A stretch of 64,000 bases of DNA from assembly GCF_000383975.1 (NCBI RefSeq), contig NZ_KB913017.1, forward strand, positions 3,572,265 to 3,636,264, in the 5' to 3' direction. The stretch is from Natronorubrum tibetense GA33 (GTDB lineage: Archaea; Halobacteriota; Halobacteria; Halobacteriales; Natrialbaceae). A program made the position numbers and the translations under genes. A model generated the notes under the pieces. That model did no database searches and was not told the origin of the DNA. It saw nothing but the letters and a program-made list of their open reading frames with translations. Every line of letters begins with the position of its first letter. The stretch's first letter is position 1. Shown one piece after another: positions 2,830 to 44,887 of this stretch.

Positions 2830-2965
2830 ACGCCGACCGCTACCACAATACGGCTCTTAATACCCCTAGTGATTGATATTCAAACACGACATACAGAGAA
2901 TAGGACATATCAATTGCTGGGACGACACAAACGGATTTGTAGGCCCTCAATGTAGGGAGCGTCGA

Positions 2966-3694
2966 ATGCTTGACAACAAGATCGCAATCGTCACCGGTGG
3001 CGCGGTCGGTATCGGTAAAGCAATCGCCGACCGATTTCTCGAGGACGGCGCAACCGCCGTCATCGCCGACATCGACGAGGAGACGGGCGCAGCGGTAGCC
3101 GACGACCTCGGCTGTCAGTTCGAACACTGCGACGTCCGCGAGTACGAACAGGTCGAGGCGCTCGTCGAGGGCACCGTCGAGGAGCACGGTCGCCTCGACG
3201 TGATCGTGAACAACGCCGGCGTCGCGAGCGTGACGTCGGTCGAGGAGATGGAACTCGAGGAGTGGGAGAACGTGATCGAGACAAACCTCGACGGCGTCAT
3301 GCACGGTACGAAGGCCGCGCTGCCACACCTCAAGGAGTCCGACGGTAGCGTGATCAATCTCGGCTCGATCTACGGACTCGTCGGCGGGCAGGGTGCCGCC
3401 TCCTACTCTGCCGCGAAGGGTGGCGTGATCAACTTCACCCAGCAGGTTGCGATCGACTACGCTGATCAGGGCGTCCGCGTTAACAGCATCTGTCCCGGCT
3501 TCGTCGAGACGCCGATGACCGAAGACCTGCTCGAGGACGAGCGTTTCTACAATTTCATGGAACAAAAAACGCCGATGGATCGCCACGGCCAACCCGAAGA
3601 GATTGCCCCGATGGCCGCGTTTTTGGCGTCCGACGAGGCGTCGTACATCACCGGGGCGAACATCCCGGTCGACGGCGGCTGGACGGCGTTCTGA
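2966..3694 (+). CDS. SDR family NAD(P)-dependent oxidoreductase
   Basis: This 242-residue short-chain dehydrogenase/reductase is complete. The Rossmann motif TGGAVGIG is at residues 10-17, the NNAG motif at 82-85, and the catalytic Ser134, Tyr147 and Lys151 are all present. Asp35 after the second strand favours NAD over NADP. The ATG was chosen because a GGGAG ribosome-binding-like sequence precedes it and the fold begins three residues later; the frame is open further upstream but that part is AT-rich and not protein-like. It is transcribed divergently from the thiolase operon, which hints at a shared role in acyl-CoA or 3-hydroxyacyl metabolism, but the substrate is unknown. Confidence 0.92.
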   Translation: MLDNKIAIVTGGAVGIGKAIADRFLEDGATAVIADIDEETGAAVADDLGCQFEHCDVREYEQVEALVEGTVEEHGRLDVIVNNAGVASVTSVEEMELEEWENVIETNLDGVMHGTKAALPHLKESDGSVINLGSIYGLVGGQGAASYSAAKGGVINFTQQVAIDYADQGVRVNSICPGFVETPMTEDLLEDERFYNFMEQKTPMDRHGQPEEIAPMAAFLASDEASYITGANIPVDGGWTAF

Positions 3695-9781: not shown

Positions 9782-9814
9782 ATGAGTAGAAAGTTCTAAC
9801 GGCCTCGTACCGAA

Positions 9815-9843
9815 TTTGCTGCTCGCGGATTGCTCGCAGCAAA
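9815..9843. repeat. Short inverted repeat TTTGCTGC/GCAGCAAA
   Basis: An 8-bp perfect inverted repeat (9815-9822 and 9836-9843) with AT-rich outer ends lies just beyond the tRNA-fragment copy. It resembles the other TTTGC...GCAAA hairpins seen at both tRNA loci and could be a transcription terminator for the minus-strand tRNA transcript. Confidence 0.5.
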
Positions 9844-9848
9844 ATTAG

Positions 9849-9975
9849 TGGGTTGGGGCAGATTTGAACCACGCCGAGACGTGCTCGCTCACGGCGCTTC
9901 GCGCCGTTCGCAATCGCGGTCGCGTTGCGACCGCGCTCTCGCTGCGTGCGTCTCGTCTAGTTCAAACTGCCGACC
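9849..9975 (-). repeat. Interrupted second copy of tRNA-Val 3' end (T-arm plus acceptor) with hairpin insert
   Basis: Bases 9849-9869 repeat exactly the last 21 bases of the tRNA-Val gene (acceptor strand and 3' side of the T-arm). Bases 9960-9975, read on the minus strand, give GGTCGGCAGTTTGAAC, whose GTCGGCAG equals the 5' side of the T-arm. Between them is a roughly 90-base hairpin-rich insert containing GAGACG/CGTCTC arms and the stem GGCGCTTCGCGCC-like core. The insert ends TTTGAAC...GTTCAAA are the T-loop sequence in inverted orientation. The same layout is seen downstream of tRNA-Glu at 44484-44549. Confidence 0.8.
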
Positions 9976-10030
9976 ATTTTTGACGACACGGACTCCTCGC
10001 TACGCTCGTCGTCATTGCGTCGTCAAAAAT
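9976..10030. repeat. Inverted repeat between tRNA-Val and its fragment copy
   Basis: A perfect 12-bp inverted repeat (9976-9987 atttttgacgac, and its complement at 10019-10030) abuts the 3' end of tRNA-Val. On the tRNA strand it would form a stem directly after the mature 3' end, so it may be a processing or termination signal. Confidence 0.7.
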
Positions 10031-10104
10031 GGGTTGGGGCAGATTTGAACTGCCGACTTCCTCCGTGTGAAGGAGGTATCATAACCGGACTAGATCACCA
10101 ACCC
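10030..10104 (-). tRNA. tRNA-Val (anticodon CAC)
   Basis: The minus strand folds as a complete tRNA. The acceptor stem GGGTTGG pairs with CCAACCC, the anticodon stem CCTCC/GGAGG holds the loop TTCACAC with anticodon CAC, and the T-arm is GGCAG/CTGCC around loop TTCAAAT. The discriminator base is A and CCA is not encoded. It reads GUG valine codons. Confidence 0.96.
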
Positions 10105-44483: not shown

Positions 44484-44549
44484 TGCCCCGTCAGGGATTT
44501 GAACCACGCGAAACGCTCGCTTCGCTCTCGTTTCTCTAATTCAAATCCC
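44484..44549 (-). repeat. Interrupted second copy of tRNA-Glu 3' end with hairpin insert
   Basis: Bases 44484-44504 repeat the last 21 bases of tRNA-Glu with one mismatch (tgccccgtc versus tgctccgtc). Bases 44539-44549, read on the minus strand, give GGGATTTGAAT, the T-stem plus an inverted T-loop. The insert between has GAAACG/CGTTTC arms and a GAGCGAAGCG core. The junctions TTTGAATTAGA and CGCGTGGTTCAAATC closely match those of the tRNA-Val copy at 9849-9975, which has TTTGAACTAGA and CGGCGTGGTTCAAATC. Confidence 0.8.
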
Positions 44550-44559
44550 TTCCGTCCGC

Positions 44560-44584
44560 TTTTTGCTCACTACGTTCGCAAAAA
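44560..44584. repeat. Inverted repeat between tRNA-Glu and its fragment copy
   Basis: The arms tttttgc (44560-44566) and gcaaaaa (44578-44584) pair perfectly and abut the 3' end of tRNA-Glu. Position and AT-ended arms match the inverted repeat found next to tRNA-Val, so a common termination or processing role is likely. Confidence 0.65.
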
Positions 44585-44659
44585 TGCTCCGTCAGGGATT
44601 TGAACCCTGGTCATCGGCTCGAAAGGCCGAAATGATTGGCCGGACTACACCAACGGAGC
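44585..44659 (-). tRNA. tRNA-Glu (anticodon TTC)
   Basis: The minus strand folds as a complete tRNA. The acceptor GCTCCGT pairs with ACGGAGC, the anticodon stem TCGGC/GCCGA holds the loop CTTTCGA with anticodon TTC, and the T-arm is AGGG/CCCT around TTCAAAT. The discriminator is A and CCA is not encoded. It reads GAA and, by wobble, GAG codons. Confidence 0.95.
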
Positions 44660-44717
44660 GTTCACTTCGTTCACGCGCCGAGCCTCGACGGACTTCGTCC
44701 GTCTCGCCAACGGAGCG
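44650..44717 (-). repeat. Second copy of tRNA-Glu 5' end plus hairpins upstream of the tRNA
   Basis: The 11-base sequence ccaacggagcg at 44650-44660, the 5' end of tRNA-Glu, recurs at 44707-44717. On the minus strand the upstream copy is followed by two small hairpins, GACGGAC-GAA-GTCCGTC and GTGAAC-GAA-GTGAAC-like, before the real tRNA begins. With the downstream copy this means both ends of the tRNA gene have partial duplicates separated by hairpins. Confidence 0.65.
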
Positions 44718-44887
44718 TGTTTCGCTCTGCAATCAGTCATTGCCGAGGCCTAGTAAAAAGCGTTCCGTTCCGAGTCGACGGTGGCACACGCTGACGCACC
44801 TGAACGTCACGCACAATACACACTCCCGCGTTCACCGCTTCCGCCGCCATCTCAACGTTTTTGAAGCCCCGTGACAACCTATCCCGC

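Follow-up and report, generated by a model that had tools for sequence, protein, structure and literature searches.

Results

Organization of the tRNA-Glu and tRNA-Val loci

The window analysed in this study is a stretch of 64,000 nucleotides from the 4.9-Mb genome of Natronorubrum tibetense GA33 (G000:C1:3572265-3636264). Two tRNA genes lie in it, those for Val(cac) and Glu(ttc). Both are encoded on the minus strand, as are all window features described below. The tRNA-Glu(ttc) gene was located at 44585-44659 using ARAGORN and Rfam RF00005. Its 3' end, nt 53-73 (GTTCAAATCCCTGACGGAGCA, 44585-44605), recurs at 44484-44504 with 20 of 21 positions identical, as the earlier note on this DNA had reported. 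Read in tRNA orientation, the tRNA is followed by hairpin A (T run first), a short spacer, hairpin B and the intact 21-nt copy of the tRNA 3' end. Hairpin A (44560-44584) directly adjoins the tRNA and has a perfect terminal stem, TTTTTGC-GAACGTAGTGA-GCAAAAA, together with a tandem G.A loop motif. Hairpin B (44494-44549) consists of arm GGGATTTGAA, TTAGA, the stem GAAACG/CGTTTC, GCGTGG and arm TTCAAATCCC, the second arm being inside the duplicated target. The single-stranded DNA fold of the complete hairpin B (44490-44556) gave z = -5.2 and its match to covariance model R1 (see below) E = 1.2e-9, while hairpin A with a truncated part of the unit folded no better than shuffles (z = -0.66).

The tRNA-Val(cac) gene, the second target in the window, was located at 10030-10104 by the same two programs. 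It is followed by hairpin A (9977-10029), by a spacer and a hairpin B with an enlarged terminal stem (9870-9976), by a 21-bp copy identical to the tRNA-Val 3' end (9849-9869) and by the start of an older unit, CTAATTTTGCTGCGAGC... (9811-9848). Hairpin A is the AT-ended inverted repeat that had been noticed directly behind both tRNAs, and the junctions TTTGAAYTAGA and GCGTGGTTCAAATC are indeed near-identical at the two loci. The earlier reading of a tRNA copy split by a hairpin was rejected, as the 21-nt copy is intact and what was taken for its second half (44540-44549) is the start of the copy in reverse complement, namely the inverted arm that forms the outer stem of hairpin B.

The repeat of the tRNA-Glu 5' end described earlier is also real: ACGCTCCGTTGG (12 nt) lies at 44650-44661 and 44708-44719, 58 bp apart. 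Among congeners, the leader hairpin between the two copies (44650-44719) is present with eroded repeats in G200, G296 and G295 and absent from G189, G297, G293 and G232. It may be a different insertion or reflect a deletion-prone leader, and it is a matter separate from the 3' units, and a weaker one.

Empty and occupied tRNA sites in close relatives

The closest relative, G189, provides the empty state at tRNA-Val. There CTAATTTTGCTGCGAGC... directly follows the tRNA, whereas in GA33 it follows the 21-nt copy of the unit, and the 181 bp extra in GA33 correspond to a 160-bp body plus a perfect 21-bp duplication. At tRNA-Met, 114 bp extra relative to G189 adjoin the tRNA and include a 21-bp duplication, and an older unit is common to both genomes. 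At tRNA-Glu, G200 is occupied and G296 is empty with the same flank; no unit is present in G294, G297, G217 and G293, and the unit of the window is shared with G189. Relatives without a unit show the exact empty site, not the unrelated sequence expected if the likeness of the two loci were a coincidence of composition. Together with the intergenic site L068 described below, tRNA-Val and tRNA-Met give a target-site duplication of 18-21 bp in the comparison of empty and occupied sites. These empty states could also result from precise deletion between direct repeats, which is known from Haloquadratum (PMC3119063).

The units form one family across Halobacteriales

The units are one family, and the phenomenon spans the order Halobacteriales. 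In GA33, CGTGGTTCRAAYC has 19 exact matches, which mostly lie 80-300 bp behind a tRNA gene and in several cases stand in tandem. Both comparisons suggested in the earlier note, a genome-wide search for tRNA 3'-end copies and a covariance model of the hairpin, gave positive results. With at most 5 mismatches in 20 allowed within 800 bp of the tRNA, copies of the gene's own tail were found behind at least 24 of 45 tRNA genes in GA33 and behind 27 of 43 in G189. Across all fetched haloarchaeal loci, a set that is enriched for unit carriers and in which many loci are non-independent because they come from related genomes, 236 downstream copies were counted over 211 tRNA genes against 3 for a reversed query, which excludes chance for the 3' copies. 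The covariance model R1, built on hairpin B, matched 52 of 53 genomes from Halobacteriales, against none of 242 from other Halobacteriota. It matched 36 places in GA33 at E < 1, most of them beside tRNAs, and each of its 29 best hits with loci returned from other genomes immediately follows a tRNA encoded on the same strand. A short pattern occurred in 279 of 293 Halobacteriales genomes, part of its matches being ordinary tRNA or RNase P T-stems, and the reversed pattern gave almost nothing. The same units were found in Natrinema, Halovivax, Halopiger and Natribaculum.

Unit bodies measure about 70-160 bp (median 103; 5-95% range 69-156 nt). A pattern scan over genome contigs also returned many bacterial matches, which were put down to chance, and a motif scan for hairpin A in viral contigs gave 9 matches, all apparently chance within coding sequence, and no unit. 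No earlier description of these units was found in the open-access literature searched.

Structure of the two hairpins

The two ends of a unit are different hairpins, the T-rich hairpin A (54% T in the first 6 nt) and the ...GCGTG end of hairpin B, so that palindromes are subterminal at both ends; no terminal repeat common to the two ends was found. The outer stem R''/R' of hairpin B consists of RTTYGAA/TTCRAAY plus T-stem bases, the arms reading RTTYGAAC/GTTCRAAY. Inside it follow an unpaired spacer (CTAGA/GCGTG), a 6-8 bp stem that covaries throughout, a small asymmetric loop (CAGC/GAC) and a variable terminal stem. In an alignment of 33 hairpin B sequences, 92.4% of cells were paired, two-sided changes occupied 93 cells against 32 in shuffles, and the covariation score was 0.48 versus 0.19, with every slid version of the alignment far worse; since the sequences were picked partly for pairability, these counts lean towards structure. 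The diversity of the inner stem (stem 1) is nevertheless genuine covariation.

The inner arm R'' tracks the local copy of the target: its 12-mer match was 9.58, against 8.51 +/- 0.06 when copies were shuffled among the 219 bodies, and for the three outermost arm positions against the tRNA the smaller 33-sequence alignment gave p = 0.07. The tandem G.A motif in the loop of hairpin A (GCGAAC...GTGAGC) was present in 107 of 224 bodies against 0.2 in shuffles.

Polarity and turnover of unit arrays

Units stack in tandem, and the copy adjoining the tRNA is usually the best preserved. Of the 34 informative arrays with at least two units, 29 had fewer mismatches in the tRNA-proximal copy than in the farthest one and 5 had more (p = 4e-5). 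The earlier note had proposed either a recurring element that carries the local tRNA sequence or homogenisation by gene conversion. The first part stands, as the copy is the target-site duplication that insertion produces. As the main cause, gene conversion was discarded because farther copies are more diverged and a non-tRNA site carries a duplication of its own native sequence (see below); it is also unneeded.

Turnover between close relatives is fast. The regions upstream of tRNAs are mostly 90-100% identical between GA33 and G189, yet the first unit was the same at only 6 of the 21 tRNAs occupied in both genomes and different at 15, and a further 9 tRNAs were occupied in only one of the two. 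This bears on a reading of the units as a host RNA element for processing, termination or regulation behind tRNAs, kept by selection and copied by tandem duplication or gene conversion. In favour of it, the unit lies in the path of tRNA transcription, has a T-rich start and is conserved in structure. The rapid gain, loss and replacement just described, the many tRNAs that have no unit, and the insertions found outside tRNAs, between genes and at the end of one, make it highly improbable.

Several arrays have additional contents. At tRNA-Arg(tct) (L061, G000:C1:1777300-1783000), about 4.5 kb present in GA33 and absent in G189 hold a BCCT transporter, a universal stress protein (Usp) and at least 4 further units ending in the tRNA-Arg tail, as if the genes were cargo sitting within the array. 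A long array with at least 5 tail copies, and with secondary acceptor-end copies within units, follows tRNA-Arg(gcg) (L062, G000:C1:1930500-1936000). Comparison of GA33 with G189 often showed a conserved hairpin A next to a replaced hairpin B core, as at tRNA-Phe, Arg(tct) and Val(tac); the loci compared (GA33/G189) were L015/L153, L001/L143, L018/L157 and L028/L167, and the pattern at tRNA-Met looks like two tandem units fused by deletion. In G295 (L177, about 2860-3000), a second tRNA-Glu-like gene has its T-arm interrupted by a hairpin B; it lies about 1.2 kb from the intact tRNA-Glu, and the stretch between may hold a methyltransferase-like gene. At L185 (G000:C1:3243473) and at L193 in G189, a tRNA-Glu-like 3' half is followed by units without a recognisable complete tRNA, and these loci are probably decayed or interrupted tRNA-Glu copies.

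Insertion sites outside tRNA genes

One clean insertion outside tRNA genes was found within a non-exhaustive set of non-tRNA sites. This site, L068, lies between a gene end and a membrane protease gene. The sequence CAG|TTCGAACCGAAGCCGGCC is single in G189, and in GA33 the 18-mer flanks the unit on both sides. Among the ten congeneric genomes, the 18-mer occurs twice in GA33 (138 bp apart), once in G189 and in 0 of the 8 others. The inner arm of the unit, GAGATTCGAA, agrees with the site in TTCGAA only. The element was thus brought in from another place, and its duplication arose at L068 itself. At L068, where the rarity of the unit is the one argument for it, insertion is more parsimonious than deletion.

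A second, recurrent non-tRNA site (L388 in G189, and L397) is the 3' end of a gene that ends in YRFEPV*. It has one unit in GA33 and three in tandem in G189, where a paralogue has one as well; the other congeners have no unit there. The gene encodes a conserved protein, and the first unit supplies its TGA stop. The duplication measures about 14 at L067, 18-19 at L068 and 20-21 at tRNAs, a variation in length that is unusual for one transposase.

These sites bear on the possibility that the units are attachment-site scars. A tyrosine integrase would cross over in the T-loop, a tRNA 3' end carried by the element (the attP identity block) would restore the gene, and the units would be minimal or decayed integrative elements. 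Crossover in the T-loop is typical of such integrases, the identity block in tRNAs ends exactly at the discriminator base, and at L067 the units restore the end of the reading frame including the stop, with arms that match the site. The integrases of SNJ2, pR1SE and HSTV2 are, like the units, restricted to Halobacteria (PMC8371274). At tRNA sites an element-carried block and a native duplication look alike, and the two are told apart at L068 only. There the flanks are both native non-tRNA sequence of 18-19 bp found nowhere else in the ten congeneric genomes, which counts against scars because an element-borne block does not predict it, and the mismatched arms indicate an element not adapted to the site. 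Moreover, neither the units nor the stretches between them showed an integrase gene, and bodies of 70-160 nt cannot encode one. We therefore regard attachment-site scars as unlikely.

The duplication at L068 also weighs on an integron-like process, in which an integrase of the integron type would recombine hairpin B, as a folded single-strand attC-like site, at G|TT, and the T-loop would serve as attI. The layout bears a striking resemblance, with R''/R' arms, an unpaired spacer, a stem, an internal loop and a variable terminal stem; the junction falls at G|TTCRAAY, the arrays are polar, and the genes at tRNA-Arg(tct), absent in G189, lie between units as cargo would. Conservative insertion of a cassette gives no duplication, however, and was disfavoured on this ground. 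In addition, the arms read GTTCRAAY instead of GTTRRRY, the units are without genes, and no integrase was present among the open reading frames of L061, the locus inspected. Such a process is very unlikely.

Discussion

In this study, we showed that a family of small hairpin units is found precisely inserted at GTTCRAAY, nearly always in the tRNA T-loop, with 18-21 bp of target on both sides, and that the units stack with a polarity. Since the duplicated target in a tRNA is nt 53-73, the tRNA stays complete. The feature behind tRNA-Glu is probably one copy of a group of small, gene-less, non-autonomous mobile hairpin elements of Halobacteriales that target tRNA T-loops.

The order of strand events can be proposed as follows. 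The right end (hairpin B, ...GCGTG) would be joined to one strand at G|TTC within the GTTCRAAY motif of the T-loop, and the left end (hairpin A) to the opposite strand about 20 nt further downstream, so that gap filling would leave the duplication. Covariation in its stems and the agreement of its inner arm with the local target suggest that hairpin B may be the folded right end that is recognised as a single strand. In a tRNA the left junction would be the discriminator base, and the duplication would rebuild the gene, with the old terminator alone displaced. New units would enter at the intact tRNA, the newest adjoining it, and repeat-mediated deletion between copies may also remove or fuse units. 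Mobilisation would occur in trans by a haloarchaeal recombinase or transposase. No mobilising enzyme or autonomous relative of the units was found in this analysis; by distribution or substrate only, the Halobacteria-restricted tyrosine recombinases (SNJ2, pR1SE, HSTV2) and Y1 transposases are candidates.

A Cas1 or casposase-type integrase, acting as in casposons and CRISPR adaptation, would also explain long duplications, a tRNA 3'-end target and growth next to a leader, and the A. boonei casposase reads TCAAATC in its recognition of the T-loop (PMC6614799). Cas1 (PF01867) is absent from GA33, G189 and G200 and was present in only 23 of 61 genomes of the family, while the units are near universal, and it was rejected as the present mobiliser since it is missing from genomes with recent insertions. 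The 14-15 bp that the casposase duplicates lie downstream of the T-loop, whereas the T-loop itself is duplicated at the units, and the units are without terminal inverted repeats. This origin is extremely improbable.

Beyond the elements themselves, it is possible, and we propose it tentatively, that the units belong to an undescribed order-wide DNA-integration system of haloarchaea, in which an enzyme would read a folded single-strand hairpin and insert at tRNA T-loops with a duplication of about 20 bp, building polar arrays able to hold cargo. Mobile DNA of archaea classically docks at tRNA genes, and a near-universal miniature family stacks there with the tRNA unbroken. The units explain many stray tRNA 3' fragments that annotators have taken for prophage scars, their arrays form a dated insertion record, and they point to an enzyme that integrates DNA with an exceptionally long stagger. 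As they unite polar arrays with attC-like hairpins and a duplicated target, the units offer a direct test bed for array evolution.

Comparison with known systems

Integron cassette arrays have a folded irregular attC hairpin at the unit end, a junction at G|TT and polar tandem growth; their cassettes carry genes, have GTTRRRY arms and are inserted conservatively, without duplication, by the integrase IntI. The arms of the present units (RTTYGAAC/GTTCRAAY) do not follow the integron consensus RYYYAAC/GTTRRRY. The rtT repeats of E. coli tyrT are likewise tandem and non-coding and lie behind a tRNA, each with a piece of its 3' end. They are set apart by their description as 178-bp repeats at a single locus, without a dispersed mobile family.

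Integrative elements with a tyrosine integrase share with the units the tRNA 3'-end copy, the T-loop site and a tRNA left intact after insertion, and differ in their kilobase size, integrase gene, element-carried identity block and lack of tandem hairpin units (PMC8371274). With regard to attL/attR, the units have no integrase gene inside, and L068, the only site informative on this point, shows a native duplication in place of an element-carried block. Casposons are similar in their tRNA 3'-end target, T-loop recognition and long target duplication, and their CRISPR relative grows on the leader-proximal side; they are large and gene-bearing, have terminal inverted repeats, make a 14-15 bp duplication beside the T-loop without including it, and need Cas1 (PMC6614799, PMC6977970). 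The palindrome that lies behind Methanopyrus kandleri tRNAs differs from the units in being a short motif with no copies of the tRNA (PMC5217627).

Among miniature elements, SMR-A of Haloquadratum walsbyi comes close, being about 110 bp, non-coding, hairpin-forming and haloarchaeal, with mobilisation likewise unexplained (PMC3119063). SMR-A inserts into palindromes, has terminal inverted repeats, makes no target duplication and hits PATE/IS605 ends; the PATEs of the same species also make no target duplication, and neither has been described at tRNA genes (PMC3119063). Like PATEs and IS200-IS605 elements, the units have palindromes at both ends, but they duplicate their target, as seen at L068. 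Like MITEs, which are transposon derivatives mobilised in trans, they are short, non-coding and flanked by a target-site duplication, but their two different ends do not form the terminal inverted repeats that a MITE shares with a transposon. The polar arrays resemble those of integrons or CRISPR with no shared enzyme, and if the integration system proposed here exists, it would represent a third polar-array architecture besides these two.
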